A DNA stretch of 64,000 nucleotides, taken from assembly GCA_009746045.1 (NCBI GenBank), contig RPFO01000275.1, positions 314,308-378,307 of the forward strand, in the 5' to 3' direction. The notes beneath the pieces are model-generated. The model was given only the letters and a program-made list of their open reading frames with translations. It did not search any database and had not been told where the DNA came from. Position 1 is the first letter of the stretch; every line of letters begins with the position of its first letter. The position numbers and the translations under genes were made by a program. Below are positions 2,464 through 52,727 of this stretch, in pieces. Source of the stretch: Mesostigma viride. Its lineage: Eukaryota; Streptophyta; Mesostigmatophyceae; Mesostigmatales; Mesostigmataceae.

Positions 2464-3187
2464 ATGTATAAGGACCTTTAAGACTCCGGCAGACAAGATT
2501 TCTTTTCTCAGACGCCGCAAGCGGCTCGAGAAGACTCTCTTCACCCTTGACGACGACTTGACCCTGGCACAGCAACAACGACGACGGGAGCTATGGTCGA
2601 CCTACCTCCAGCTCCGGCAGACCAAGGCGGGCCAGCCGGTGTACTGGAAGGGGGCGGCCATCTACGTCGGCCACAAGCCCTGGCAAGCGACCCCCTCGAC
2701 CACCGCGGCCCCAGCAACTCCAGCCCCAGCCTAGGGGAATACAGCAGTAGTGTAGAATAGTTAGACAGTGGCCTTGTACATGCCCGCCTACTACAGGCAC
2801 TATACCAGCTGAGGCCTAGCCCTTTTTAGTCATGTACATGTGTGCCTATGATGTGCCACACTCCAGACGATGCCTAGCCTTATTTAGTAATGTTGTGCCC
2901 ATGCAGGGAGTCACTCTCTGCTGAGAAGCCATGCCATAGCTCTTGTATAGCCATGATGATCTTCCCCCTCACAGGCATGCTCCCCCCTTACCCGGGCATA
3001 GCGTGATAGACCATGAGGGTGCGGGTGCCCTGGTGCACCTAGAGCAAGTGTTGTTTACATTCCCACCCTTGCAGGAAGTAGCTTAGAATGTACTATAGGC
3101 TCATATGCCCCTTCTCAGGGCTACGTGCTACATATACTCCCAACGGAGTTATGTTCCTAATTAATTAATTAATTAATGTATAAGGAC
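2464..3187 (+). mobile_element. 5'-truncated ORF1-type LINE insertion with 12-bp target duplication
   Basis: The insert 2476-3175 carries the last part of the ORF1 protein (ADKISFLRRRKRLEK, then TLDDDLTLAQQQRRRELW, ending in an Ala-Pro-rich tail with a stop near 2732). After it come the roughly 400-bp 3' UTR shared with the copy at 52728-54704, a terminal stem-loop ACTCC-CAAC-GGAGT and an AATT tail. The 12-mer ATGTATAAGGAC is present on both sides (2464-2475 and 3176-3187), so both ends of the insertion are defined. The ORF1 fragment is almost identical to the other copies, which suggests recent movement. Confidence 0.9.
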
Positions 3188-7305: not shown

Positions 7306-7382
7306 CTGCAGAACAATATCAAAAAAGCAAGTTTCACAAATGTCATTCAGAATCTGAATCGCCGGCAGAAAAACGATGGGGA

Positions 7383-7847
7383 GGGTCTCGCTGCAGCTAG
7401 ACCCTTTCGTGGATTCTAAAAGGGACATTTACTTTAATGCAAAACTTTGGCGTCTCGCTGCAGCGAGACCCTCACTTCAAGCAAAAACAAATCATTTTTA
7501 GGGTGAGCGAAAAAAAGCAACCTCCCATTATGCAAACATAAAAAAGTATACATTCCTTGGGGTCTCGCTGCAGCGAGACCCTAACGTCAAACAAAAACGA
7601 ATCATTTTTAGGGTGAGCGAAGAAAGCCCCCTCCCATGATGCAAACATTAAAAGTCGACATTCGTAGGGGTCTCGCTGCAGCGAGACCCTAACACCGATA
7701 CAAAAACAAATCATTTTAAGGGTGAGAAAAGAAAGACCCCCCCATCATGAAAACATGAAAAATTGACATTCCTTGGGGTCTCGCTGCAGCGAGACCCTTA
7801 CGTCAATACAAAAATAAAATTCCGAGGGTCTACCCGCAGCGAGACCC
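7383..7847. repeat. Cluster of six 22-bp palindromes (left cluster)
   Basis: Copies lie at 7383-7404, 7450-7471, 7560-7581, 7668-7689, 7776-7797 and 7826-7847, spaced about 50-110 bp. The consensus half-site is GGGTCTCGCTG followed directly by its exact reverse complement, with a PstI site (CTGCAG) at the centre. The spacers are themselves related (TCATTTTTAGGGTGAGCGA and TGCAAACAT recur), so the array behaves as a roughly 110-bp tandem repeat with the palindrome as its conserved core. It lies upstream of the acceptor of the SR-like exon, so probably in an intron. Confidence 0.95.
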
Positions 7848-7856
7848 TTACGACCA

Positions 7857-8400
7857 CGTATAAATACATGTGGGGGGGGGAAGCTACGTATAAATCCATG
7901 TGGGGGGGGGATGCTATGTATAAATGCATGTGGGGGGGTGCTGCCATGAATAAAAGAATGTGGGGGTGTGATGGCATGAATAAATGAATGTTGGGGGGTG
8001 CTGGCATTAATAATTAAATGTGGGGGGTGATGGCATGAATAAATAAATGTGGGGGGTGCTGCCATGAATAAAAGAATGTGGGGGTGTGATGGCATGAATA
8101 AATGAATGTTGGGGGGTGCTGGCATTAATAATTAAATGTGGGGGGTGATGGCATGAATAAATAAATGTGGGGGGTGCTGCCATGAATAAAAGAATGTGGG
8201 GGTGTGATGGCATGAATAAATGAATGTTGGGGGTGCTGGCATTAATAATTAAATGTGGGGGGGTGATGGCATGAATAAATAAATGTGGGGGGGTGCTGCC
8301 ATGAATAAAAGAATGTGGGGGTGTGATGGCATGAATAAATGAATGTTGGGGGGTGCTGGCATTAATAATTAAATGTGGGGGGATGATGGCATGAATAAAT
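7857..8400. repeat. 118-bp higher-order repeat, four copies
   Basis: Four units begin GTGCTGCCATGAATAAAAG (near 7938, 8056, 8174 and 8292). Each is made of four diverged, about 30-bp subunits of the form 'ATGAATAAATGAATGTGGGGGG'-like text. The subunits are reverse-complement relatives of the 30-bp repeat that follows, so the satellite switches orientation near 8400. Confidence 0.9.
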
Positions 8401-8401
8401 A

Positions 8402-9577
8402 AATGATACGTAGCATCACCCCCCCACATGTATTGATACGTAGCATCACCCCCCCACATGTATTGATACGTAGCAGCACCCCCCCACATGTATTAATACG
8501 TAGCATCCCCCCCCCCACATGTATTGATACGTAGCAGCACCCCCCCACATGGATTGATACGTAGCAGCACCCCCCACATGTATTGATACGTAGCAGCACC
8601 CCCCCACATGTATTGATACGTAGCAGCACCCCCCCACGTGTATTGATACGTAGCAGCACCCCCCACATGTATTGATACGTAGCAGCACCCCCCCACATGT
8701 ATTGATACGTAGCAGCACCCCCCCACGTGTATTGATATGTAGCAGCACCCCCCCACATGTATTGATACGTAGCAGCACCCCCCACATGTATTGATACGTA
8801 GCAGCACCCCCCCACATGTATTGATACGTAGCAGCACCCCCCCACATGTATTGATACGTAGCAGCACCCCCCCACATGTATTGATACGTAGCAGCACCCC
8901 CCACATGTATTGATACGTAGCAGCACCCCCCCACGTGTATTAATACGTAGCATCCCCCCCCCACATGTATTGATACGTAGCAGCACCCCCCCACATGTAT
9001 TGATACGTAGCAGCACCCCCCCACGTGTATTGATACGTAGCAGCACCCCCCCACATGTATTGATACGTAGCAGCACCCCCCCACATGTATTGATACGTAG
9101 CAGCACCCCCCACGTGTATTGATACGTAGCAGCACCCCCCACATGTATTGATACGTAGCAGCACCCCCCCACATGTATTGATACGTAGCAGCACCCCCCC
9201 ACATGTATTGATACGTAGCAGCACCCCCCCACGTGTATTGATACGTAGCAGCACCCCCCCACATGTATTGATACGTAGCAGCACCCCCCCACATGTATTG
9301 ATACGTAGCAGCACCCCCCCACATGTATTGATACGTAGCAGCACCCCCCCACATGTATTGATACGTAGCAGCACCCCCCCACATGTATTGACACGTAGCA
9401 GCACCCCCCCACATGTATTGATACGTAGCAGCACCCCCCCACATGTATTGATACGTAGCAGCACCCCCCCACATGTATTGATACGTAGCAGCACCCCCCC
9501 ACATGTATTGATACGTAGCAGCACCCCCCCACGTGTATTGATACGTAGCAGCACCCCCCCACGTGTATTGATACGTA
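8402..9577. repeat. 30-bp minisatellite, about 39 copies
   Basis: The unit is ATTGATACGTAGCAGCACCC plus CCCCACATGT, with C-run length varying from 6 to 9 and ACATG/ACGTG alternation. It ends abruptly at 9577, where the TIR element begins, and the same array resumes in phase at 16439. The 30-bp period keeps several frames open, but these are not genes. Confidence 0.97.
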
Positions 9578-9615
9578 CACTATACTATAAACTTACGGCC
9601 CGTACACGTATACGG
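9578..9615 (+). repeat. Left terminal inverted repeat
   Basis: 38 bp starting CACTATACTATAAACTTACG; the inverted match is at 16401-16438, with one difference (C versus T at position 15). Confidence 0.92.
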
Positions 9616-9775
9616 GCCCCGTATACGGCCCGTAAACGTATACGGGCTCCGTATACGGTACGTAAACTTTACTTCAATATACGACAAAAAGTATACGGGC
9701 CGTAAGTTTTACGGCCGGTATACTTTTTGTCGTATACTTAAGTAAATTTTACTTTAGTATACGAAAAAAAGTATT
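9616..9775. repeat. Left subterminal palindromes (GTATACGG family)
   Basis: Repeated, mutually inverted blocks containing CCGTATACGGCCCGTAAA and TATACGACAAAAAGTATACG form hairpin-capable arms. The same family occurs at 11740-11935 and, diverged, at 16040-16400, so both ends of the element carry it. Such subterminal repeats are often transposase binding sites in DNA transposons; that role is inferred here. Confidence 0.85.
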
Positions 9776-11738
9776 CATGTCCCACGTAGCTCCCACAAAA
9801 ACCAGCATCTTCATTAAAACAATAAGTGGAAGCATACATGTGACACTAATTGACATGCCCGGAGGCACGCCGTTCAAGGCCCTTCATGAAGTACGTTGCC
9901 CTAGAGGCAACCAAGACAAGGGTGGGTGGGTGGGGAGCAAAGAAAGAGGCCGACAAAACCAGCCAGAGCGGCTTTTAGTCGCAAAACCTCCCTTATCCCT
10001 AGCTAACTGACGTCATTAAACCCTTATGTTTAGTGGATGCTAGTAAGACGCTAACCGTACAGACCGGGGGTAGAATATCCCGAATCTGCACGGCTAGTAT
10101 TAAATAATGCGTAGGTTGTTCTTTTCAGGGGCACTGCACCTCACGCCCCGTTCCGCCCGGGTATAATCAACCCAAGCGCGGAACGCACATTTTATTTAAT
10201 TCATTTTTCAACCATGCACTATATTGCATCTACTAATCACAAAAGCTCTAGCCAAACAGCTACGAGTAAACACTGCGACCTATAAGCCGCTCATCCAGCG
10301 GCCTCTTGTTCCCGCATTCACGTATAGAAGAAACTCCGTTCAAAGAACCCCGATTCATGTCCCACGTAGCTCCCACAAAAACCAGCATCTTCATTAAAAC
10401 AATAAGTGGAAGCATACATGTGACACTAATTGACATGCCCGGAGGCACGCCGTTCAAGGCCCTTCATGAAGTACGTTGCCCAATCACCCCCGCCCTGGCT
10501 TTCCCTTGAAGCCGCACTCCACCTTGCTCGTTGTCACAAGTGACCGCCCTGCCGCAAAACGGGAGCCCCCCCACATCGGGAGGCGTGTGCCCGGCGGCTG
10601 TGGATGCATGGCCAGGCCCAAAAAGGCCCAGCGCATTTGCACTGCGATTGCGCACGGCCAGCCTATCATGACCCCTCTCGGGGCCCCGAGTCGGTACCGC
10701 TATGGCCGTCTCCCCATAGACCCGGGGTGCTTCGAGAAAAAACGTGGACCTAGCCCAGGCCCCGCCAGCCCGGATGCCCGAGGCCACAGCCCCAGGCACC
10801 TGGCTGAACGAGAGTCCGTTCAGCCAAGACCGCATTCCCCCCCGAGGTTTCTATGCGTGGGGAAAAAATTTCTAGCTTAGACGCTTTTCCCATCGCCGTC
10901 CCCAGCCCCAACCACCCCCCCTCGGCGGAAGGCAATTGCAAAGTTTGCTGGCCAGCAGCAATTTCCGAAGAAAAAGCCGCAGGCCGCGGACCGAGACACG
11001 GGTCGCCAGTGCCAGCCATCCGGCTCCAACCCGGGGTGCAAGCATCCCCAGGTACGGAGCACCAGCTCGCGCACTGGGCCGACCAAGCGACAGTTGAGCA
11101 CCTGTCACGGCATCCGGCCCACCAAAGACCCCAAGCTGGGGAAAAGGTGCGGACCGGAGGTAATCTTTTTCTTTTCTTTTAGTTAACCGGGCGAGGAACT
11201 ACGCCTGGCCGGTTAACAACTGGAAGTCTCACCACTGGCCAAGTGGCCAGTGCAACCAGTGCTTTTGGGATTTTGCTCCGCAGCACCCATAGCTGCGGCT
11301 GCCGCCGCAACGACAACGAGCAAAGAAAGAGGCCGACAAAACCAGCCAGAGCGGCTTTTAGTCGCAAAACCTCCCTTATCCCTAGCTAACTGACGTCATT
11401 AAACCCTTATGTTTAGTGGATGCTAGTAAGACGCTAACCGTACAGACCGGGGGTAGAATATCCCGAATCTGCACGGCTAGTATTAAATAATGCGTAGGTT
11501 GTTCTTTTCAGGGGCACTGCACCTCACGCCCCGTTCCGCCCGGGTATAATCAACCCAAGCGCGGAACGCACATTTTATTTAATTCATTTTTCAACCATGC
11601 ACTATATTGCATCTACTAATCACAAAAGCTCTAGCCAAACAGCTACGAGTAAACACTGCGACCTATAAGCCGCTCATCCAGCGGCCTCTTGTTCCCGCAT
11701 TCACGTATAGAAGAAACTCCGTTCAAAGAACCCCGATA
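9776..11738. repeat. Tandem duplication A-B / A'-B' with internal length difference
   Basis: Segment A (9776-9901) recurs at 10354-10480 and segment B (9936-10352) recurs at 11317-11738, almost without change. Between A and B there are only about 35 bp in the first unit but about 836 bp in the second. The simplest reading is a tandem duplication of a unit of about 1.4 kb in which the first copy later lost its middle. The 836-bp core (10481-11316) is GC-rich and ends in a pyrimidine tract plus TTTTAG near 11180. Its frames are not protein-like. Confidence 0.9.
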
Positions 11739-11739
11739 C

Positions 11740-11940
11740 GGGCCGTAAAAATTACTACCGTATACTTTTTGTCGTATACTTTAGTAAACTTTACTAAAGT
11801 ATACGACAAAAAGTATACGGGCCGTAAACTTTACGGCCCGTATACTTTGTGTCGTATGCTGCAGTAAATTTACTACCGTAAACGACACAAAGTATACGGG
11901 CCGTAAAATTTACGGCAAGTATACTTTGTGTCGTATGTAT
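11740..11940. repeat. Internal palindromic GTATAC repeats
   Basis: Three back-to-back inverted blocks around GGGCCGTAAA and TATACTTTTTGTCGTATAC, same family as the subterminal repeats at 9616-9775. Confidence 0.88.
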
Positions 11941-12059
11941 GCCTTACAGGCCATTTTTTTACGTCCACTTGGCGTCCACTAGAATTAATGTCACGCTACG
12001 TGCACGCCGCGTACACCGAACCGAGCCTAGTACGGGGCCGTGACCGAAACGGACCCCGG

Positions 12060-12500
12060 TTACGGTCTTGTTGTTGTTGTTGTTGTTGTTGTGTCCCACG
12101 CCGCACATGGGCAGCAGAGAATCTATACTGGCCGATACGGTCTTGTACTTGTCCCGTTCTAGGTACGGCACAGAGCGGTTGCGTGTTGTTCTTGTTCTTG
12201 TTCTTGTTCTTGTTGTTGGTTCCCACGCCGCGGAAGTTAGTTAGTTAGTGAGTTAGTTGAATCCCACGCCGCGGAAGTTGTTGTTGTTGTTGTTGTGTCC
12301 CACGCCGCGGAAGTGCAGCAGAGATTCTATATTTGCCGAAGGCCGGATAGAACGGTTGCGTGTACGGGACTGGTTTCAGGAACGCCCCCGTACCTGTGCT
12401 AGTCGAGTTTGCAGGTGGGGAGTTGTGAACCGCCGCGCCGGGCGAGAACGATTTTTCGAATTTATCAACGATCACAAGCGTCTGCCCTTGCAACGCTTGC
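12060..12500. repeat. TTG/TTCTTG microsatellites and ~100-bp duplication
   Basis: (TTG)n runs at about 12067-12092 and 12277-12297, (TTCTTG)n at 12186-12216 and (GTTA)n near 12236. Two related segments begin GTGTCCCACGCCGC (12091 and 12296) and continue through GCAGCAGAGA-TTCTATA; a third partial copy begins near 12221. Confidence 0.8.
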
Positions 12501-13283
12501 CTCATAATTAGCCGGCCATGCCGATTTGCAGTCGCCAGCCGGTCAGTAGTGGTGAAAGAATATTTGGACTAAAAAAGAATCGCGGGCTTATTGCGCCTGA
12601 AGAAGAAGAAAGCCAAAGGCGCACTAGAACAAGCCTTTGGAGCCGCAGTTTAGCATGATTGAGTTATCATTTTTCCAGCCATCTACAGCGCTCTCTCCGA
12701 TACAGCTAGCCTACCATGGCGTAGTCCTTAGCCAGCTACATCAATTTGTTCGTCTTTGTTCCTAAAGGAAATTTAAATTTCGTGACATCGTGCGCATGCG
12801 GCATTTCACGAAGCTACTGCAATCGCATTACGCTAAACAAAGTAAGCCAATGTTCCTAATCAGCGCCCGCATATGCATGCCACGTTTAGTCGCAAGGAGT
12901 CGCATAGACTATCTGTCTCACACTTTGTTAATCATCGCTCATTTGCTTACTGCTCTATGAGGGGAGCTGTGTACTACTGATTCTCTATCTTTTATGTATG
13001 GCAGTCGACTTAATGTCTTTTGCCATTCTTCAGGTTTCCACTCGTTCCCGTCGCTTGACAGGCTACTAAAGACGCCTTTGAGTTACGCGACATTTTCGGC
13101 CTCGTTTACTCTACACCCGGCACATCTGGGCTACTCATTATGTGCCGATGTCCACCGTAAGTTATTCAAGTTTTTTGCCTTGCATGGTTGTCAGTTTTGC
13201 TGGGCAATTTCTCCCCACCGAGATCTCTTTTTTCGCTTTGGCAACGCCATGCTATTGTATGGTCTGCCTTCGTGCCATGCTAG
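12501..13283. other. Unassigned interior of the TIR element
   Basis: About 780 bp without repeats or a supportable reading frame; one 98-codon frame (12994-13290) has no recognisable content. Confidence 0.5.
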
Positions 13284-14385
13284 TGGGTAGGTAGGTTCAC
13301 GTGCTTGTTCGTTGTCAAGAGAGGAATGCGTGTGGGTGGGTGGGTTAACGCGCTTTTTCCCTGTCAAGGAAGGGATGCATGTGGGGTGGGTGAGTGCAAG
13401 TGCTTTTTCCTGTCAACGGAGGGATGCATGTGGGGTGGGTGAGTGCACGTGCTTGTTCCTTGTCAAGGGAGGGATGCACGTGGGGTGTGTGGTTGCACGT
13501 GCTTTTTCCTTGTCAAAGGAGGGATGCATGTGGGGTGGGTGAGTGCACGCGCTTGTTCCTTGTCGAGGGATGCATGTGGGGTGGGTGGGTGCACGCGCTT
13601 GTTCCTTGTCAAGGGAGGGGTGCATGTGCAGTAGGTGGGTGCACGTGCTTGTTTCTTGTAAAGGGAGGACTGCATGTGGGGTGGGTGGCTGCATGCGCTT
13701 GTTCCTTGTCAAGGGAGGGATGCATGTGGGGTGGGTGGGTGCATGCGCTTGTTCCTTGTCGAGGGAGGGATGCATGTGGGGTGGGTGGGTGCACGCGCTT
13801 GTTCCTTATCAAGGGAGGGATGCTTGTGCATTAGGTGGGTTCACGTGCTTGTTTCTTGTAAAGGGATGGATGCATGTGGGGTGGGTGGGTACACATGCTT
13901 GTTCCTTGTCAAGGGAGGGATGCATGCGCGGTGGGTAGGTGCATGCTCTTGTTCCTTGTCAAGGTAGAGATGCATGTGGGTGGGTGGGTGCATGAAATTG
14001 TTCCTTGTCAAGGGAGGGACGCAGGTGGGGTGGGTGGGTGCACATGCTTCTTCCTTGTCAAGGGAGGGATGCATGCGCGGTGGGTGGGTGCATGTGTGTG
14101 TTCTTTATCAAGGGAGGGATGCATTGCAGTAGGTGGGCCCACATGCTTGTTTCTTGTAAAGGGAGGGGTGCATGTGGGGTGGGTGGGTGCACGTGCTTGT
14201 TCCTTATCAAGGGAGGGATGCATGCGCGGTGGGTGGGTGCATGTGTGTGTTCTTTATCAAGGGAGGGATGCATTGCAGTAGGTGGGCCCACATGCTTGTT
14301 TCTTGTAAAGGGAGGGGTGCATGTGGGGTGGGTGGGTGCATGCGCTTGTTCCTTGTCGAGGGAGAGATGCATGTGGGCCGCTAGC
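13284..14385. repeat. 50-bp minisatellite, about 21 copies
   Basis: The unit TGCATGTGGGGTGGGTGGGT plus GCACGCGCTTGTTCCTTGTC plus AAGGGAGGGA repeats with substitutions and small deletions. Several pairs are near identical (for example about 14090-14210 and 14220-14340), showing local higher-order duplication. Confidence 0.95.
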
Positions 14386-15450
14386 TTCCCTCCCCTCCCC
14401 TCCCTTCTTAGCTTCCCTCCTTCCTTGCATTACTGAAGTTCCTATAGCTTCCTTCCCCTCCCCTCCCATATCCCATAGCTTAATGCCCTTCCCTTTCCTC
14501 CCTCTCCCTTTGTAGCTTTCCTCCCCTCCCTTTCTTAGCTTCCCTCCTTCCTTGCATTACCTAAGTTCCTTTAGCTTCCTTCCCCTCCCCTCCCATATCC
14601 CATAGCTTAATGCCCTTCCCTTTCCTCCCTCTCCCTTAGTAGCTTTCCTCCCCTCCCTTGCTTAGCTTCCCTTCTTCCTTGCAGCACCTAAGTTCCTTTA
14701 GCTTCCTTCCTCTCCCCTCCCATCCCTGAGCTTCCCTCCCCTTTCGTCCCTCTCCCTTCTAAGTAGCTTTCCTCCCCTTCCCTTTGTTAGCTTACCTCCT
14801 TCCTTGCATTACCTAAGTTCCTTTAGCTTCCTTCCCCTCCCCTCCCATGTCCCATAGCTTAATGCCCTCCCCTTTCGTCCCTCTCCCTTAGTAGCTTTCC
14901 TCCCCTTCCCTTTCTTAGCTTCCCTTCTTCCTTGCAGCACCTAAGATCCTTTAGCTTCCTTCCCCTCCCCTCCCATCCCTGAGCTTCCCTCCCTTTCGTC
15001 CCTCTCCCTTAGTAGTTTTCCTCCCCTTCCCTTTCTTAGTTTCCCTCCTTCCTTGCATTACCTAAGTTCCTTTAGCTTCCTTCCTCTCCCCTCCCATCCC
15101 TTAGCTTCCCTCCCCTTTCCTCCCTCTCCCTTCTAAGTAGCTTTCCTCCCCTTCCCTTTCTTAGCTTGGGGGCTTCCTTGCATTACCGAAGTTCCTTTAG
15201 CTTCCTTCCCCTCCCCTCCCATCTTAGCTTCCCTCCCCTTTCCTCCCTCTCCCTTAGTAACTTTCCTCCCCTTCCCTTTCTTAGCTTCCCTCCTTCCTTG
15301 CATTACCTAAGTTCCTATAGCTTCCTTCCCCTCCCCTCCCATATCCCATAGCTTAATGCCCTTCCCTTTCCTCCCTCTCCCCTAGTAGCTTTCCTCCCCT
15401 CCCTTGCTTACCTTCCCTCCCTCGTTGCATTACCTAAGTTCCTTTAGCTA
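14386..15450. repeat. ~125-bp pyrimidine-rich minisatellite, about 8 copies
   Basis: Units start near TAGCTTTCCTCCCC (14512, 14638, 14766, 14891, 15010, 15137, 15253, 15385) and include CCTTGCATTACCTAAGTTCC. The plus strand is almost purely C/T with regularly spaced TAGCTT. Confidence 0.93.
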
Positions 15451-16039
15451 CTTGGGAGCGGCGGGAGCGATGCCGACGAAAGGGCTGGCTGCGGCAAGAA
15501 CGTCGTCCAGCGACCGGGTTTCTGGGTCGGCAGGTGTTGTTGGGGCCTCCATAGCTACGGGGAAGATGTCGAATGCTGGGGCGGGGGGCGCAGGCGTGCT
15601 ATTCACGAAGGGAATGCCGCCATATCGAGTCGAAAATAGCGATATCTGCTGGGCAGGCCGCCAGGCCGAGGTCGAGAACGTACGAAATCGGGGGCGATAG
15701 CTGCCGGAAATTATACCAGCGTGTTTGTCATCAGAAGACGAGTCGAATGCAACAAACCCGACTAAATTTCATGGCCTGAGTCGAAAGTTATGAGCATTCT
15801 CGGCAGCCATAGCTCGGCATATTTTCGCGTACGTCGTTGAGCTGATGCTCTGGGAAATTTGAATGATTGATAAGGGTTAATTCAACTAGTGTGTTTCTTA
15901 GTAGTATAATGTGTTTCTTCATTAATGTGAATGATTGATAATTGATTAATTAATTTGAATTAATTATTGCCACATGATGTTTCCATGAAGTCAAATGACA
16001 ACGCAAATCACAATACACTAGGTTGGACAAATCACAAGG
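15451..16039. other. Unassigned sequence, AT-rich at its right end
   Basis: No gene recognised. A 98-codon frame at 15404-15700 starts inside the minisatellite and is not convincing; 15880-16010 is AT-rich. Confidence 0.5.
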
Positions 16040-16400
16040 TTACGGCCAGTATACTTGTCCAGTATACTGGTCGTAAACTTTTACTACCGTATACTTTTTC
16101 TAGTATACTGGCCGTTAAATTTACTACCGTATACTTTTTCTAGTATACTGGCCGTTAAATTTACTACCGTATACTTTTTCTAGTATACTGGCCGTAAAAT
16201 TTACTACCGTAAATTTTTTCTCGTATACTGGCCGTAAAATTTACTACCGTATACTTTTTCTAGTATACTGGCCGTAAAATTTACTACCGTAAACTTTACT
16301 GCCGTATACGAGAAAAAGTATACGGTAGTAAATTTTACGGCCAGTATACGAGTGGTAAGTATATGCGTACGAACGTAAAATTTACGGCCCGTAAAAATTT
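16040..16400. repeat. 40-bp tandem palindromic repeats (right subterminal)
   Basis: About five copies of TTTACTACCGTATACTTTTT plus CTAGTATACTGGCCGTAAAA (16080-16280), then an inverted stretch at 16290-16350 that can pair with them. Related to the GTATACGG family at the left end. Confidence 0.92.
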
Positions 16401-16438
16401 CCGTATACGTGTACGGGCCGTAAATTTATAGTATAGTG
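16401..16438 (-). repeat. Right terminal inverted repeat
   Basis: Reverse complement of the left terminus with one mismatch; followed by TA and then by the resumed 30-bp array. Confidence 0.92.
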
Positions 16439-16890
16439 TAGCAGCACCCCCCCACATGTATTGATACGTAGCAGCACCCCCCCACATGTATTGATACGTA
16501 GCAGCACCCCCCCACATGTATTGATACGTAGCACCCCCCCACATGTATTGATACGTAGCAGCACCCCCCCACATGTATTGATACGTAGCAGCACCCCCCC
16601 ACATGTATTGATACGTAGCAGCACCCCCCACATGTATTGATACGTAGCAGCACCCCCCCACGTGTATTGATACGTAGCAGCACCCCCCCACATGTATTGA
16701 TACGTAGCAGCACCCCCCCACATGTATTGATACGTAGCAGCACCCCCCCACATGTATTGATACGTAGCAGCACCCCCCCACGTGTATTGATACGTAGCAG
16801 CACCCCCCCACATGTATTGATACGTAGCAGCACCCCCCCACATGTATTGATACGTAGCAGCACCCCCCCACATGTATTGATACGTAGCAG
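16439..16890. repeat. 30-bp minisatellite, continued (about 15 copies)
   Basis: Same unit and same orientation as 8402-9577. It begins in mid-unit (TAGCAGCACCC), exactly where the left part was interrupted, so both parts were one array before the TIR element inserted. Confidence 0.95.
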
Positions 16891-17625
16891 CACAATTTTA
16901 GTCAGCCTACCATCCACGTTGCGGCAAAAGATCACCTTTTTTTGTGTTTCGGCAAAATGAAGATTTCTTGCAAACTATCGTTATGCAGGCAGGTAGCAAC
17001 GTCCGATGTTATAATCCGGCAGGTAGCATGCAAACGTCGAAACGATATGAAGGGGAAAAAAAGCATCAAACAGGAGCACCGATTAGAAACGCAGCAAATG
17101 CAGTATGTGCACATCTACACCTATAACCTAACCAGACCAAAGGCATAGCAAACATGGAAAGGGTGACCCAAGTGAAAGCCTAGCACCACCATGATCGACA
17201 TGTGCGAGACCAAGAAACGCTCCATGGCAACTAGACTAAAGGGATGGATGCCAGATGTGGATTAGGATCGGCTTAGCTGACTCTACCGAGATGTCTGCAG
17301 GGTTTAGCTAGCAACGAAAAGAAGGAAGCCAGACATTTTTATCACTCTTGCTGCAACATAGAGTTTCTTGCGATGGCAGCAAGGACATGTCTTCGCCCAG
17401 CTGGCTAACTGTGTCGTCGGCGTGCATGCGCTGTTTAGTTGCCGTTTTTGATAGAACAATTTTAGTCAGCCTACCATCCAGGATGCGGCAAAAGCTCACC
17501 TTTTTTTCGTTGTGCGGCGAAAGCAGACCGATTTCCTTGTAAACTTCCGGCACCAGGCAGGTATCAACGTAGGATTTTATAATCCAGCAGGTAGCATGCA
17601 AACGTCGAAACGATATGGCAGCTCG
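16888..17625. repeat. Diverged direct repeat of ~165 bp
   Basis: 16890-17052 and 17456-17618 share ACAATTTTAGTCAGCCTACC at their starts and TAGCATGCAAACGTCGAAAC at their ends, with substitutions and small gaps between. The 400 bp separating them have no recognised content. Confidence 0.85.
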
Positions 17626-18044: not shown

Positions 18045-18700
18045 AACGGTCACGCTGCAGCGAGACGCTATAGCCCTGGAGGCCGCTGATAAACCTGACA
18101 TCCGGTACGTCTTACTATCATAGATTGCCGAACTATATAATAATAATAGTCTATACCACTTTTTCTTGTAAATGATTTACTAAATAATGATTCTATATAC
18201 TTTAACATACCATATTATTAAAGTATGTGGAATTTAACCATGCTATTCACAATATATTATAAAATCTTTTGCAAAATATACTGTAATTAGTATATATATT
18301 TTCTGATAAACAATTTTATCAATGCTACTGTGTTATTTTTGTTATTCTCGCCATGCAGGTATCTGAGTGTTCTGGGAGAACTAATAAGAGAATGAGCCGC
18401 GAAGGTGAGGAAAACCTGAAATCTTTTCGTCCTTATTGGGGTCTCTCTGCAGCTAGACCATTTATAACCACAAGCAATAGCTTAAATTCAAGGGTCTCGC
18501 TGCAGCTAGACCCTCTTTATGGTTGCTATAAAATTAATGAATCAGAAGTCTGTGATTTAACAATCGCACGCCGCAATGAAGGGTCTAGCTGCAGCGAGAC
18601 CCCAATCTTGGTCGGGGTATGCTAAGTTCACCACATCAGGTAATCTTTTCGTCTAACGGAAAAAGCCCCTCTAAGGGTCTAGCTGCAGCTAGACCCCAAT
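18045..18700. repeat. Palindromes upstream of the plus-strand gene (right cluster)
   Basis: Copies at about 18050 (partial), 18437-18457, 18493-18514, 18581-18602 and 18675-18696. The last is a perfect palindrome built on GGGTCTAGCTG instead of GGGTCTCGCTG: the seventh base and its partner in the other arm have changed together. AT-rich DNA (18120-18340) separates the first two. Confidence 0.92.
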
Positions 18701-18711
18701 CGTGGTAAAAA

Positions 18712-21700
18712 ATGATACACTTTCGAACTTTGTCTGTAATTGTCGCTTTTCCCAACGATACTCGATTTGCATGGATTTCGTTGTGCCGGTCGTCATGGCA
18801 TGCAGCACGCGAACGGGTGGGAGTTTTCGCCCTTGCGTCCGGTCGTCCAGGATTCAGTGCAATTAAGTTGAACACCGGGACGAAGCAGTCAACTGGCGCA
18901 AAAAGGGTTTTCGGAGATGAGAACCAGAATCCAGCGCAGCCTGAAGCCAAGGAAGTCAAGCGGCCGGGAGAATACTCGAAATCAAAGAGGGTTATTGGGG
19001 AATATTTCGCTGACCAGGCGTTTGAAGCGGCTCAGGCGATGACAAAACCCGAGGGGCGGGGGCCGGCTTTCGACCAGATGATTGCTGGCTTTAACTCTAG
19101 GGCCGCTGAACTAGGTCACGGGAAGTATCATGAGGAGGCGAAAAAGCTTTACAATCAGGAGCGGATGGCAGAACTGAACAGGTTCTGGGTGGCTCGGATT
19201 AACGGCTTTTTTGATGGTCTGACCAAAAGCGACGCAGACAGAGACGTCAGGATGGTGCTGATGTCCACGCTTTACTGTGGTGACGACTTGGAGAAGGAGT
19301 TTTCGGCCGCGGAGTTGGAGAACCTGACGGGGATGGACGCCAAGAAGATTCGCGGAATTCGCGCGATACGAAGGCAGCAGAAGTTGGACTACCTCAGACA
19401 CGCGCAGGCTCGCAAGGGGCGCCCTTTGCCGCAATTCGTGATTGACGCGATAGTGGACGCGTGGATGCACGATGATGAGTCGCGCGCCTCCTCCCAGATG
19501 AAGGATGTCAAGCGCACTTACAGCAGGGAGGGTCGTGGCAATCACGGGGTGCTCGTCGCCGTTGAGGGAGCGCGCTATTACATGACCTCCAAGGAGGACA
19601 TGTACAATCACTTTCTCGAAAAGCATGCGTACTGGAACAAAAGGAGTAACCAGTATGATAAGGACGTGGGCATTCACGTGGGCTACACGACCTTCTGCAA
19701 ATACGCGCCCGATTGCATCAAGGGCAAGTGGAAGGAGAGGAACCTGTGCGCGTGTGAGAAGCACGTCACCATGCAGTCGGCCATGGGGGCGTGGACCAAG
19801 CACTCCAATGCGAACCACGGCAAGAACTGCAAGTGTGGCGCGGAGTGTGCGGGATGCTCCAAGTACAGAGAGCCGGACGGTACTTGCGGAATGTGGAAAG
19901 CCATTCACTCGACGGACTGGATCAAGCACTTTCACTGCCCGGTGTCCGCCGAGACTGACGGCAGGGATAACGGGCTGCGTGAAGGGGGCGGAATGGGCGG
20001 GGGGATGGAAGAGGGGGAGGGGGAAGATGAATGGCGGGGACGGGACCTGGAAGACCTCGACATTTCTGAGAGGCTGGTGGAGGACGAAGATGGGGTGCCG
20101 AGGACGGAGAGGGTTCACCGCATACTGAAGATGGCGTGTGTGGAGGGGTTCTGTCCTGAGGAATCATGCGGCATCCATAATAACTGGGTGCAGTGTGATC
20201 GGGACAAGAATTCCACGGAGATTCTGAATTGGTTCAAGTTCGAGATGGTGGAGCAGACTGTGACCCGACGGGTGAATGTGAGTTGGTTTCGATTTTATTT
20301 CTCCGTTAATATGTTGTTGACTTTTTTTTTTGTGACCTATAGCTGCAGCGAGACCCTTTGTGAGTTGCAGTTATCTTATCGAAATGCGATTTTATTGCAA
20401 ATCGAAACTGTCTGCGGACCTTTGCGAAACAGGGCGAGACCGATGGCAGGGCGGCGAAGAAGGTGAAGCGGCCCGAGCAAGTCCAAATGAGGTCCACCCC
20501 AGCTGAGCTGCGGGACGAGATTCTTAAGATGTGGGACAAGTTCACCGTGCACTGCTTTACGGCCTGGTCGCAGGCGGATACAATCAAGGATCGGGAGAAG
20601 AATCTGAGAGAGGGGGACGTGCTCGTGCACGGCGACTGGGCCGAGAACTACGAGAACAGCAGCTACGTCCAACTGCAGTCGCAGTACTTCCACAAGCGCA
20701 GCCACATCCTGATGCCCATGATCGTGCGTTATCGGCTCAACGGCGAGCTGGAAAAGCGCGTCTTCTTTTTCCTGGGGGATTCCAGTATCAAGCGGGGCGA
20801 GCGCGCACTCGTATACGCTCTTCGCAAGATTCTGGAAACCCTGCGGGTAGAAGTAGGGGTAGAGGTGCGAAACCTGTACATGTGCTCGGACAACTGCGCG
20901 GTGCAGTTTAAGTCCAGGTACGTGATTAACCAGATTAACGGTCTGCTCATGGGGGATCCCGACCTGCAGGCCTTTGAGTTCCACTACATGGGGGAGCAGC
21001 ATGGGAAGGGGGAGGTGGATGGTCAAGGAGCGAAGTGCAAGTGCGTCTTGAGGGAAATGCAGAGGATTCCCGAAAACCAGCACATACTTGAGACCCACCA
21101 GCTAGTCGCCTACTTGAACCAGAACTGGCAGGGCGGCAAGACATCGAGCAGGGAGTCGGCCCGCGCGCGGGCCGAGAACGTCACTCGCCACTTCTTCCTT
21201 TTACCCCCGGTACGGAATTTGTGTTATTTCAGGTTTTAAGACGTCAACTGCCGCTGTTCTATAAAAATTCAAACCCAATAAAGGTATCTCTGCAGAGAGA
21301 CCCTATATACTGTCATGGGTTGCTTTTCTTTTAGGTATGAAATTTCGCTTGTTCTTCGGTATGAAGGGGTCTCTCTGCAGCTATACCCTGTGTCGAATTT
21401 CGATCACTTGATATCTTGTCGTACGTTGTTATTATGATTCGAATGGGGTCTCTCTGCAGCTATACCCTGTGTCGAATTTTGATCACTTGATATCTTGTCG
21501 TACGTTGTTATTATGATTCGAATGGGGTCTCTCTGCAGCTATACCCTGTGTCGAATTTTGATCACTTGATGTCTTGTCGTTAATTTTTTTTTTAAGGGGT
21601 CTCTCTGCAGCTATACCCTGTTTTATTGGTTTTTGGTCAATTTTGCTAATTTGAACGGTATTCTTTTTGTCCTAACTATTTGATGACAGGACGTCGAGTC

Positions 21701-22436
21701 CGGCCGACGCGCGGAGGTTGAGGAGGTGCCTGGCATCAAGAAGGCGCATTGGTGGCGACTGGACAAGTCCGACCCTGGCCTTTTGATGATTAGGCGCTAT
21801 TCCTGCTACTGTCCGCCCTGTTTGGCTGGGCGGTTTGAGGGATGTCTAAGCGAGTGGTCGTTTATCATCGAGTTCAATGATGCAGGAAGCTCGATGAAAA
21901 CTGTCCGTTTGCTGCCACCGAGCCAGCCCAACCCTCCGGTTCGCATGGTGACGCGGGGGGAGCAGCTGAAGGACAAGCGGGAGGCGATGGGCCGGCAGAT
22001 GAGACTCCACGACTATGTGGCAGTTCCATCGGACAAGGACACGGATCACGATCCCATCCACCCGTTCTGGTTGGCTGAGGTTGTAAGCGAAGCCGGGCCG
22101 ATCGTGTTAGACGAGAACTTCGAGAGGTGGGTCGAGGGCCGGAACGGACGGGAGAAGGAGCTGTTCCTCGCCGGGAACGGCATTCTTCCCGTTCGGATTT
22201 GGAAGCGGGATAAGCATGACCCCCTGCATTTCACGCTCAACGTTGAGGATTGGCCACCGTCACGCCAGCCCGAGCTTGTGAATTGCTATCTCTGCGTCGC
22301 TCCGGCTCTCCGGCTAGAAGCACGCGTGCGCAGCGACGGAATGTGTGCCGACATCAGGATGAGCAAGGAGCTCGACAAGTGGCTTACTACGCTGGTGATC
22401 AAGGATGAAGCCCCGGAGGGGCCGGCACCGACTTAA
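18712..22436 (+). CDS. Three-exon protein, possibly a DDE-type transposase
   Basis: Exons 18712-20277, 20433-21209 and 21690-22436 join in phase 0 at GT-AG introns into about 1,029 residues. The first part (to about residue 330) is basic and helical. Next is a Cys/His-rich segment, including CACEKH and CKCGAECAGC, that looks zinc-binding. The second exon has conserved-looking motifs VHGDWAENY (Asp about 590), CSDNCAVQFKS (Asp about 675) and GEQHGKGEVDG (Glu about 710-716), spaced like an RNase H-fold DDE/D triad. From memory, similar motifs occur in unnamed repeat-associated proteins of invertebrates. The third exon is an uncharacterised C-terminal domain with a Cys pair (YCPPC). The true start may be upstream. 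Both introns carry the 22-bp palindrome. The transposase role is inferred. Confidence 0.72.
20278..20432 (+). repeat. Intron 1 of the plus-strand gene with one palindrome copy
   Basis: 155-bp intron (donor GTGAGT, acceptor AACAG) containing a degenerate palindrome copy at about 20338-20358 (AGCTGCAGCGAGACCC). Confidence 0.8.
21210..21689 (+). repeat. Intron 2 with five palindromes in an ~80-bp tandem array
   Basis: Palindrome copies at about 21283-21303, 21365, 21445, 21524 and 21596; the middle copies are part of an about 80-bp tandem unit that includes TCACTTGATATCTTGTCGTA. The first copy carries TCTC/GAGA arms, another matched-pair variant of the core. No copy falls in an exon. Confidence 0.9.
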
Positions 22437-22727
22437 ACAAGAAATTGGGGTCTCGCTGCGGGTAGACGACGCCCTAGTTTCGGCTCGTATTATATCTTTA
22501 GAGTGGGGCTTCAGTAGGGTGTAAAAAGGTGGCCGCATATATTGTATATATTTTTCGAGATCTTTCTGTGGTCAAGTTTAAGGGTAGTTGATAATTTTTT
22601 GCGGCCTTCAATTAACAGTTATTTTTTACTGCAACATAATTTTATGCTGTATATTTAAATAATGATAAGGATTTCGATATTTTTTTGCACAATCTATTCG
22701 ACATTTGTTTCTGCATGTCGAGAATTT
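22437..22727. other. Downstream flank, AT-rich, one degenerate palindrome
   Basis: A partial palindrome copy lies at 22447-22468 just after the stop codon. The remainder is AT-rich with no recognised gene. Confidence 0.6.
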
Positions 22728-48994: not shown

Positions 48995-51105
48995 CTCTTA
49001 ATAGCGCCGGAACCTTTTTGCCACCTGCGGCAATAGGTCCGGAGCTATTTAGCCGGCGATAACCACTCGCTCTCTGGCTCACCGCAGCAGCAGCTCGACC
49101 AGTGGTATTCCTCCCAGTCCCGGCTGCTCGGCGCCCCCCCGCCGCCTCCGCCGCTTGGCCCTCTGGCGGCCGCACGCCTGGCAGTAGCACCGGCGGACGT
49201 CCCTGCGCCGCCCACGCCGCCCGCCGCTGAGCAGGACTACACGTACCCAGCCCTGACGGAATCCCTGGCCGACCCCAACGAGCTCCCGCCGTTCACCGAG
49301 CTCGAGCTGAGCACCGCCGCCAAGCAACTCCGCTTTTATGCCGCCGTTGGACCTGACCAGCTCCCAGCCCCGGTGATTAAGCTGACGGCGCTCACGGGGT
49401 TCCTGCTTGACGTCTGCAACCGGATCCTGCTTGCCGACGCGCCGCCGATTCCTGAGTGGCAGCACAGCTACCGTATTATGCTGTAAAAAAACAAAGGTTC
49501 CCCTGACGACCCCGCCAACTACAGAGGAGTCTGCATCCAGAGCGCCGCACTTAAGTTGTTCATGCGCATGATCCTCAACCGCCTTCGTTCTGCTCTCGAC
49601 TGTCACCTTGGCGAAAGTCAAATGGGCTTCCGTCCTGGGCGCAACACCGTCATGGCCATATTTGTCGCGCGTCGCCTCTTCGAGGAAATCGCTCTCCTGC
49701 AACCTGGTGAGTTTCCCGCCATCCTGATCTTCGTCGACTTCATCAAGGCTTTTGATTCTGTCCTCTGGGACGCTCTATGGGCTGTACTTGCTCGCGCTCG
49801 CGTCCCCACTCCCCTGATTACCGTCATCCGCATGCTGTATTCATGAGGGGTCGACCACTTCGGTGCGCACTCAACACGGCATTACCCCGCCATGCCCACT
49901 GCAGACCGGCGTCTGGCAGGGTTGCGTCCTGTCGCCGTACCTGTTTATTATTGTAGTGGATTATGTTATGCGCCAGGCACGTGCTCGCTTTGCTAGCATT
50001 GCAGGCCGTGCCCCTGGCCTAGCGATCACGAACGAGCTTGGGGAAGGGGGGCCGACTAACAAGCAGAATTTACTAGCTGACCTCATTTATGCCGACGACA
50101 TCACGCTCATCGAGAAGCCGGAGTCTGCCCAACTTTGGCTGGACTGCCTGGCGCTCGAGGCTCGGGCGGTTGGTCTAGAAATCAGCCCCAAAACGGAGGC
50201 CCTGGCCCTCGGCATGGCAGGGCCCCCACCCACACTCCGCCTCTTAGACGATGCCGAGGTCAACTACCCTCCTTCAGGCCGCTTCAAGCTGCTCGGCAGT
50301 TGGCTTCCCGACTGCGAGGACGACATGACGACACGGATCGGCATGGCGTGGGCGCACCTCCATGACCACCGCCGCTGGTGGAGCAACCCCGCCCTACCCC
50401 GGATCGTCAAGCGTGACCTCTTCAAGGTCGTCATTCTGACGATCCTGACCTACGGCGCCGAGACGTGGACACTGATGCAGGAGCTGGAGCAACGACTCGA
50501 CGGCGCCGTCACGAAGATGCTGCGCAAGGCCCTTAACATCCCCTTTGGTTTGCACATTAGTAATGAGGATTTGTACGCTGATTTGCCCTATGTTTCCCAC
50601 ATTATTAGGCACAGGCGCCTGGGCCTAGCCGGGCACCTGGCCCGCACAGATCAGGTAGATACATCAGATAGACTAGCTGGCACCAAGCCCGCCCCTGGGC
50701 GATATGGAGCCTGGGCGATATGTCCTCACCTGGCGTGCCCCCGGCCGCGCGCGGCAGGGCCGCCACCCGTGGACTTTTCGTGATAGACTCGGCATGGACA
50801 TGTGCTACACTAGACGTGACGGGCTCACCCCCGGGCAGCCTCCTGGTTTGTCTGTAATATGGAGGCAGATGGTGCGCAAGGATAGATGGCAAGTAGTGAT
50901 GAAGGAGACCACCCCCAAGCCTGTGGGGGCTCCGCGTGTGACCAAGTATGGCATTCATAGCGATTCGGGCCGCGGTGCCCACACCCCTGTAACTAGGACC
51001 TAGATTAAGCTTATACCATCTGGACATTCCATACCATGTTCCCCTCCCACTGAGGACTTATGCTCACGTGACGCAGTCACGTGTCTATTAATTAATTAAT
51101 TAACC
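48995..51105 (+). pseudogene. LINE ORF2 reverse transcriptase, 5'-truncated and frameshifted
   Basis: Reverse transcriptase of a non-LTR retrotransposon. Recognisable blocks in order: DDPANYRGVCIQSAALKLF, GESQMGFRPGRNT, FVDFIKAFDSVLW (first catalytic Asp), GVWQGCVLSPYLF, LIYADDITLIE (YADD catalytic pair) and, C-terminally, AETWTLMQELEQRL and SVIWRQMVRKDRW. The N-terminal endonuclease is missing. Lesions: TAA at 49484-49486 in frame; a one-base deletion near 49843 that makes a false stop; and a 16-bp tandem duplication near 50695 (CCTGGGCGATATGGAG) absent from the copy at 55.7-56.3 kb. It ends after 51003 with the hairpin CACGTGAC-GCA-GTCACGTG and a TTAA tail (51066-51103). It cannot encode a full enzyme. 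Confidence 0.93.
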
Positions 51106-51112
51106 ACTCGCC

Positions 51113-52576
51113 AGAGCCACGAGCCACGAGGTAGCCATGGCTGACGGCGGCGCTCATAACTTTCACGTTTGAGCACCGAATTTAGTCGTGAATATCACAA
51201 TCGCTTCGTCTTTCTAAGACGCACATGCTGATATAATTTTCCGACGCTATTACGCAATATACGATGAGCAAACGCCCATCGACGCAACGCAGCCTGACGG
51301 CTGCGCTCGGCAATGAAAATACGTCTGCAGCTCCGGCTGCAGCTTCGCCATCAGGGCCGGAAGGCAGTGGTGACACTAGTCGCGCACTGGTGGCCGCCCA
51401 GCACCCTCCCGGGCTTCCTGCCTTGCCATCGGCCTCGCCAGACCCTAAACGCAGCCGCTCATCCTTTCCACGCGAACCGCGTTTCAAGTACAACTCCTTC
51501 CATGCCGACGATCACGACTGGTTCAACAACATTTCTCCGGTCGCTGCTATGCACTGCATTTTCTTCGGGGACTACGCCTCGCTTCTTGAGCTGTGCCTCT
51601 ACTTTCACAGCATCCACCGCCTACTGGAATTTGACGGCACTGATTTTAAACAGAGCCGCGAACTGCTGCTGACGGGCTTGTACCCCCGGCCCGAGCTTCA
51701 GCACATGATTCTCTGTTCCCTGCTGACGAAGTCTGACGGCGAGATCTTGGCCCCCACCATCTCCGCAGCCACATACCGCTCCATCCTCACGGAAGCCTTT
51801 CAGCAGCACGTGACCCCCCTTGCCGCAGATGTGGCGGCAATGGGCGGCACGCTGGCTACTGAGCTCCCTCACATTTCCACCACCGTCACTTCCACCTCCA
51901 CCCTCCTCGCCTCCACCTCCACTGCCACCTCCTGACCTCCACCGCCGACATCAAAGCCCAGCTCCTCGACATCGACCAGCGTCTTAAGAACAATGCCATC
52001 GCTATCGAGGTCCTGAAGAACACCGCAGGCCTCACCGCCCAGGCAGTGAAGGACATTGCCGCCAAGCCAGCCCCGGCTGGCCTGGCCGGCGATGCTCCTC
52101 CCATCACCACCTGGGCGGACATGCTTAAGCAACACACCACCTCCACCACCTCCGCCGTCGCAGCCCAGCTTCAACGGCAGACGCTTGACCTCCGCGAGGA
52201 GGCCAAGCTCCCCAAGCGCAGCCTCAACGTCATTGTCAAGAATCTCAAGATGGAGGAAGGTGAGAATTCCGAGAAGCTTGCGCGTGCTTTTGAGAGAGGA
52301 ATCCTTGATCGCATGGGCCTTACTGGTGAGATCGAGCTGGCCGCCCACCGCCTTCCCCGCGCGCGGGGTAAGGCAGGGCCGCCCCCGCTCCTTCTCACCT
52401 TTAAGACCCCGGCGGACAAGATTTCTTTTCTCAGACGCCGCAAGCGGCTCGAGAAGACTCTCTTCACCCTTGACGACGACTTGACCCTGGCGCAGCAACA
52501 ACGGCGACGGGAGCTATGGCCGACCTACCTCCAGCTCCGGCAGACCAAGGCGGGGCAGCCGGTGTACTGGAAGCAG
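51113..52576 (+). mobile_element. ORF1-only LINE, copy 1, 3' truncated
   Basis: Starts with GAGCCACGAGCCACGAGGTA as copy 2 does, then about 150 bp of leader and ORF1 from ATG 51264. The first frame runs to 51935 (an N-terminal Ser/Ala/Pro-rich segment, then FGDYASLLELCLYFHS). After a frameshift in a Pro/Ser/Thr-rich linker the second continues from about 51940 with a coiled-coil region (AQLLDIDQRLKNNAIAIEVL), SLNVIVKNLKMEEGENSEKL and LLLTFKTPADKISFLRRRKR. This resembles the L1 ORF1p layout (coiled coil, RRM-like domain, C-terminal domain), an RNA-binding chaperone. The copy stops at 'CTGGAAG' (52574), where repeat X begins. Confidence 0.87.
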
Positions 52577-52727
52577 TGTGAGCCAATACGGCAATACGGC
52601 AATACGGCAAAACCTCGGCGTATTGCGTATTTCGTATTATACACGTATTATACGCGTATTATACGCCAAGAGCTCAAAAAGTGGTTTTTTGTTCGGAAAA
52701 GTGGATTTTCAATTAGGATAAAATATT
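52575..52727 (+). repeat. Repeat X, first segment
   Basis: Begins CAGTGTGAG, then ATACGGCA repeats and TATTATACGCG-rich inverted text, and breaks off in GATAAAATATT at the insertion point of ORF1 copy 2. It continues at 54705. A more complete copy in the opposite orientation is at 56425-56753. Confidence 0.8.

Follow-up and report, generated by a model that had tools for sequence, protein, structure and literature searches.

A TA-flanked 6.86-kb inverted-repeat element in a Mesostigma viride minisatellite: probably a non-autonomous transposon that later received a second insertion

What kind of DNA has entered a 30-bp minisatellite in Mesostigma viride, and in what order did its parts arrive? 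Within the window, i.e. the whole 64-kb stretch that was analysed, the minisatellite is interrupted by one copy of a 6,861-bp element (9578-16438), whose ends and flanks are as follows:

9578..9615, + strand: left terminal inverted repeat (TIR), 38 bp, 37 of 38 bases identical to the right one
16401..16438, - strand: right TIR, 38 bp, 37 of 38 bases identical to the left one
9576..9577, no strand: left copy of the TA target duplication; with a single TA kept, the joined flanks give back a 30-bp unit
16439..16440, no strand: right copy of the TA target duplication; same join
8404..9577, + strand: left part of the target 30-bp minisatellite, about 39 copies
16439..16893, + strand: right part of the target minisatellite, about 15 copies (the repeat listing starts at 16438)

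With the TA counted in, the two ends match at 39 of 40 positions. They read CACTATAC...GTATAGTG and so carry the CA..TG of the CMCT group. Joining the flanks in silico with a single TA gave an empty site that is an exact unit of the 30-bp array, phase kept, and the integration point is the second TA of TACGTA in this unit; the arrays on the two sides are one repeat, about 95-98% alike among the alignments listed. As a control for the ends, 20 windows were produced by Markov resampling, and in them 14-mer seeds 50-10,000 bp apart were extended in one direction with at most one mismatch. The longest inverted pair obtained was 20 bp, and 5 of the 20 windows had no seed at all. Scanning for pairs 100-15,000 bp apart that share 12 identical bases beginning CAC revealed 43 matches, 10 of which passed a filter requiring the 2-bp flanks to be equal and three or more different letters to be present; this element is among the 10, and the other nine all lie within the arms of a single inverted duplication at 50.6-56.1 kb. 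All 18 window sites of GTATACGG fall in the element (1.0 expected), and the 14-base terminus, allowing up to two mismatches, occurs at seven sites: the two exact ends, four in the right subterminal array and one outside (18250). The initial annotation had described a 6.86-kb TIR element with a TA duplication and an empty array site, and had made this depend on the flanking arrays agreeing in phase; on each of these points the data bear it out. TIRs together with a target duplication whose empty site can be restored are features of a class II TIR transposon.

About 400 bp inside each end is made up of palindromic GTATAC and of GTAAA/TTTAC units, and the element is divided as follows:

9578..9774, + strand: outer piece of the left subterminal palindrome array, 197 bp with 8 GTATAC, TIR included
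11738..11937, + strand: inner piece of the left subterminal palindrome array, 200 bp with 7 GTATAC
11938..16042, no strand: core, 0 GTATAC in 4,105 bp, boundaries by eye
13285..14377: minisatellite in the core, 50-bp period
14394..15449: pyrimidine-rich minisatellite in the core, 127-bp period
16043..16438, - strand: right subterminal palindrome array, 15 GTATAC in 396 bp, TIR included

Without the block that splits the left array, the arrays measure about 397 bp (left) and 396 bp (right), their inner boundaries (11937/11938 and 16042/16043) being placed by eye, and they flank a 4.1-kb core. GTATAC is absent from the 1,963 bp of the block as well as from the core, and outside the element it occurs once in 9,575 bp and seven times in 47,560 bp. 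The right array has a 40-bp period at 16049-16297, and four of its units resemble the terminus at two mismatches. Contrary to the description of the cargo as almost wholly tandem repeats, the minisatellites fill only about 2.15 kb of the core. The stretch has 46 listed ORFs of at least 70 aa, many of them within tandem repeats; none of the nine element ORFs tested against Pfam gave a match at E up to 1, in agreement with the earlier claim that no transposase is recognisable. Scanning the window against Rfam at the gathering threshold, and for tRNAs, gave no matches. The termini pattern was found in none of the viral and none of the bacterial/archaeal contigs searched, and neither the A-start pattern of the block, nor one subterminal palindrome, nor relatives of P0002 were found in the viral contigs; both collections may leave out the window's own genome, so that these negatives carry little weight.

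The block within the left subterminal array (1,963 bp, 9775-11737) consists of two units arranged head-to-tail and meeting at AT:

9775..10354, no strand: first nested unit, made up of A (ending at 9901), the 33-bp x and B (starting at 9935)
10355..11737, no strand: second nested unit, made up of A' (ending at 10481), the 836-bp y and B' (starting at 11318)

The A copies (129 bp) are identical, as are the B copies (420 bp), while the middles x (33 bp) and y (836 bp) differ. When the block was excised in silico by joining 9774 to 11738, the neighbouring array units matched at 87% over 117 columns (E 1.55e-37) with two gaps, neither of them at the junction, and on the other strand at 85% over 124 columns. 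Excision without AT leaves a 2-base gap at the junction, and retaining one AT closes it. AT stands at the left edge, at the unit junction and at the right edge of the block, and once in the restored site, a pattern that fits an insertion between A and T as well as a 2-bp AT duplication. These data indicate that the block is not original interior, as had been supposed, but was inserted later into the left subterminal array; of the tandem A-B duplication proposed initially, the identity of the A and B copies stands, whereas the middles differ and the block as a whole is secondary. It is quite unlikely that the block instead arose when part of the element's interior was simply duplicated in tandem, with no secondary insertion: 100% identical copies are what a recent duplication would leave, and a later deletion could account for the difference between x and y, but the lack of GTATAC in the block and the continuous repeat restored on both strands with one AT kept argue against it. 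Possibly a single nested unit inserted first and was then duplicated. Helitrons end in 5' TC...CTRR 3'; the ends of the A-B units are TCATG...CCCCGAT, or ATCGGGG...GACATGA when taken from the opposite strand, and a Helitron was rejected given that their ends carry no CTRR.

The target array has its own surroundings:

7382..7848, no strand: host unit, six copies of a palindrome near GGGGTCTCGCTGCAGCGAGACCCT, left of the target array
18046..22468, no strand: host unit, 11 more palindromes at 18046-21619, plus one at 22449 that diverges further
18805..22433, + strand: host-unit gene, exons about 18805-20277, 20433-21209 and 21687-22433

The 24-bp palindrome forms two clusters, 17 sites in all, with the target array between them, and in the right cluster the palindromes lie upstream of the gene, in its introns and after it. 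The gene product has an RNase H-like fold and is possibly a transposase. Given that the array is flanked by palindrome clusters and lies beside this gene, it probably belongs to another element.

Together, the data point to a non-autonomous cut-and-paste transposon that arrived first and an A-B block that came later. We put the probability of this reading at about 0.78, a figure that covers the transposon and the order of the two insertions and does not include the CACTA class. A transposase encoded elsewhere in the genome would act in trans on the element, presumably binding its ends and subterminal units, and would cut at CAC/GTG and then join the ends to TA. The sequence itself shows that the element entered the 30-bp minisatellite at TA, duplicating that TA, and that the 1,963-bp head-to-tail pair (A-x-B, A'-y-B') inserted afterwards at AT in the left subterminal array.

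As to class, the element is probably CACTA-related. The likeliest supplier of the transposase, with about an even chance, is a CACTA-related (CMCT) enzyme; some other or unknown enzyme is a weaker candidate, and a Tc1/mariner-like one weaker still. It is unlikely, by our estimate, that the element itself is a non-autonomous Tc1/mariner (or pogo-like) derivative mobilized in trans. TA duplication is the rule of the Tc1/mariner superfamily, and the element shares with such derivatives both this duplication and ends that begin CA; against this, Pfam found no Tc1/mariner transposase in the nine element ORFs, and both the 6.9-kb length and the subterminal arrays, each about 400 bp long, are atypical of the superfamily and set the element apart from its non-autonomous members.

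Also rather improbable is a foldback-type element, with internally repetitive inverted ends derived from another superfamily after loss of the transposase. Single-stranded folding of the array pieces far exceeds that of shuffles (z -10.5 for 9578-9773, -15.3 for the left inner piece, -16.1 for the right array), which would suit such an element; the arrays fold strongly because they are palindromic, and folding alone is no demonstration of function. However, the near-perfect inverted repeat is limited to 38 bp, beyond which the two ends are about 70% alike over 184 bp, and therefore subterminal arrays look likelier than long TIRs. For foldback elements, among them Tetris in Drosophila, an origin from another superfamily has been proposed; the ends of Tetris contain tandem repeats and, in the excerpted text, no autonomous copy of it was found (PMC4079207). 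The internally repetitive ends of Tetris and Galileo, with proposed or reported extra transposase-binding sites (PMC4079207, PMC3573991, in excerpt), resemble those described here, but their TIRs are much longer. An assembly artefact, suggested by the long simple arrays of the window and the identical A and B copies, is hardly credible, since mis-assembly would not readily produce the in-phase array, the exact TA, two independent restored sites and middles x and y that differ.

A CACTA-related transposon is consistent with what is published. CMCT lineages mostly have CA..TG ends and duplications of 2-5 bp (PMC12730594), a range that includes the 2 bp found here. Their transposase is a DDE enzyme with C(2)C and H(3-4)H motifs, and a non-autonomous copy need not encode one. 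Plant CACTA/EnSpm elements, e.g. Jozin of Chenopodium, likewise start with CACTA, have subterminal repeats of several hundred nucleotides and in some cases satellite arrays (PMC8978399); the arrays here, about 397 and 396 bp with boundaries by eye, are of that size. In the strict sense plant CACTA has a 3-bp duplication (PMC8978399), in contrast to the 2-bp TA of the Mesostigma element, in which no transposase was recognised. SmTRC1 of Schistosoma mansoni, which its authors class as CACTA-related, shows 2-bp duplications at 7 of the 14 copies and has three empty sites; it is alike in its 2-bp duplication, in having empty sites that lie within other repeats, in its long TIR of 54 bp and in its tandem repeat region, and differs in encoding a Transposase_21 protein, in its TIR and in showing the duplication in half its copies (PMC1636069). 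ESTA, an EnSpm-like lineage of fungi, shares the TA duplication, as Tc1/mariner does, and places it inside the CMCT group, but its defining trait is a RAG1-like transposase, and its description includes TET/JBP genes (PMC12730594), neither of which was seen in the Mesostigma element. SmTRC1 (PMC1636069) and ESTA (PMC12730594) leave without support the idea that combining a CACTA-like start with a 2-bp duplication makes an unusual kind of element; the part of the rarity claim that survives is the difference from the 3 bp of plant CACTA (PMC8978399).

A more far-reaching proposal is, taken jointly, very unlikely: that this alga, an early-branching streptophyte, has a CACTA-related lineage that targets TA and links the 2-bp forms of fungi (ESTA) and animals (SmTRC1) to the 3-bp plant CACTA, that the palindromic 40-bp subterminal units would be a distinct end architecture, and that the A-B pair would be a separate, undescribed non-TIR element integrating at the central AT of GTATAC and forming head-to-tail chains, as expected of a recombinase that integrates circles.

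Given that 2-bp/TA duplications, subterminal arrays and internal tandem repeats have each already been published for CACTA-type elements, novelty is modest, and the locus is an unusually readable case of a familiar kind of mobile DNA. The two before-and-after insertion sites make ends, duplication and order of events legible from one sequence. If the element is CACTA-related, a 2-bp TA duplication occurs in an early-branching streptophyte, and the contrast with the 3-bp form of plants would be a testable evolutionary step. The locus also shows that a second insertion can land in a subterminal repeat array, which is a simple route by which such an element could change or become non-functional.

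Comparing the two ends of the element, a 6,861-bp transposon candidate, we found that its terminal inverted repeats (9578-9615 and 16401-16438) are identical at 37 of 38 bases in inverted orientation and that TA stands directly outside both. In 20 Markov-resampled windows, searched by one-way extension of 14-mer seeds 50-10,000 bp apart with at most one mismatch, the longest inverted pair was 20 bp. The ends proposed in the initial annotation are confirmed. One 30-bp minisatellite lies on either flank (~39 copies left, ~15 right). Fusing the flanks with one TA gave an exact 30-bp unit with phase kept, while fusing them without TA would leave 28 bases, so that the 2-bp duplication is read directly; the reconstructable empty site that had been claimed thus holds. 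The 30-bp unit includes TACGTA, and the element inserted at its second TA.

Features of the element and counts of GTATAC
9578-16438, 6,861 bp: the element
9578-9774, 197 bp: left subterminal array, outer piece; 8 GTATAC
9775-11737, 1,963 bp: block of two nested units, A-x-B and A'-y-B'; 0 GTATAC
9773-9901 and 10353-10481: A, 129 bp, copies identical
9935-10354 and 11318-11737: B, 420 bp, copies identical
Between A and B: x (33 bp) in the first unit, a different middle y (836 bp) in the second
11738-11937, 200 bp: left array, inner piece; 7 GTATAC
11938-16042, 4,105 bp: core; 0 GTATAC
16043-16438, 396 bp: right subterminal array; 15 GTATAC
Outside the element: 1 GTATAC in 9,575 bp and 7 in 47,560 bp

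Inside both ends is an array of palindromic units in which GTATAC and GTAAA/TTTAC are the building blocks. Most of the right array repeats every 40 bp, and four of its units differ at 2 positions from the outermost 14 bases of the element ends. Folded as single-stranded DNA, 9578-9773, the right array and the left inner piece each beat every shuffle (z of -10.5, -16.1 and -15.3, respectively), which is what palindromes alone would give. The left array is interrupted by the block, which carries AT at its left edge, at the junction of its two units and at its right edge. Excision of the block with one AT kept restored an array that aligns with neighbouring units at 87% identity (117 columns, E 1.55e-37), both gaps falling clear of the junction; on the opposite strand the alignment reaches 85% across 124 columns. 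Given this restoration, and that the arrays without the block measure ~397 and ~396 bp (inner boundaries drawn by eye), the block is most simply read as a later arrival, a second insertion within the element. The tandem A-B duplication proposed initially stands for the identical copies of A and B, but the middles differ and the whole is most simply a secondary insertion. A canonical Helitron was rejected, as the block ends do not fit. The two units may have arrived successively or as a chain, or one may have been duplicated after arrival. The block entered at the middle of a GTATAC palindrome, which may be chance given the dense sites there.

The core contains one 50-bp and one 127-bp minisatellite. 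Nine element ORFs (46 were listed over the stretch) were compared with Pfam and none matched at a cutoff of E 1, in agreement with the earlier remark that no transposase is recognisable. On the minus strand, 15697-15814 matches 51133-51250, at the start of an ORF adjoining LINE-like sequence (68% ungapped over 118 bp, E 5e-6), so a gene or retroelement leader may be present in the core. A large inverted duplication occupies 50.4-56.3 kb (e.g. 51761-52573 versus 54054-53255, 93%; 50409-51096 versus 56307-55637, 96%), where ORF 49818-50780 matches reverse transcriptase; inverted copies of ~700 bp, 98% identical, lie at 2474-3177 and 52725-53431.

Mesostigma is a streptophyte green alga, and the gene near the target array (18805-22433) has three exons, an RNase H-like fold and a family known only from Mesostigma. 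Over 18805-21209 its residues 17-766 are identical to Mv25249, one of the predicted proteins of the Mesostigma viride genome; judged against Mv26047, this public model stops early in exon 3. Palindromes similar to GGGGTCTCGCTGCAGCGAGACCCT (at most 5 mismatches; 17 copies) occur within the window only at 7382-7848 and 18046-22468, some in introns of this gene. Left of the target array (8404-9577), the array at 7856-8405 is its diverged inverted relative (~71-73%), so that the two stand head to head; just beyond the right part of the target array is a direct repeat of ~160 bp (16889-17049 and 17458-17617, 83%). Next to the unit formed by this gene and the palindromes, ORF 23887-25947 matches the transposase domain of MULE elements (PF10551, E 1.8e-14).

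The sequence itself shows the element ends, the duplication, the arrays and an order of the two insertions. Beyond the DNA, from this one copy in one genome, we infer that a transposase supplied in trans would recognise the ends and subterminal units, and that the same enzyme would excise the element and join it to TA. A TA duplication is the rule for Tc1/mariner, making this class possible. CACTA relatives fit the element best, because its ends start CACTA, its subterminal arrays are similar in size to those of CACTA elements (excerpts of PMC8978399), and the CMCT group (CACTA/EnSpm and relatives) makes 2-5-bp duplications with ends mostly CA..TG (PMC12730594). Since plant CACTA duplications are 3 bp in the same excerpts, in contrast to the 2-bp TA here, we did not file it as a plant CACTA member. 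No title or abstract among the open-licence matches listed describes this element from Mesostigma, and 'CACTA' and 'EnSpm' have 0 occurrences in the main texts, the portion covered, of two Mesostigma genome papers (PMC6947507, PMC7027972). Precedent exists for every main feature of the element: ESTA likewise makes TA duplications (PMC12730594); SmTRC1 contains a region of tandem repeats, and 7 of its 14 copies show a 2-bp duplication, for three of which the empty site lies within another repeat (PMC1636069); Chenopodium CACTA elements contain satellite arrays (PMC8978399, in part); and, in passages of PMC4079207 and PMC3573991, Tetris and Galileo have internally repetitive ends.
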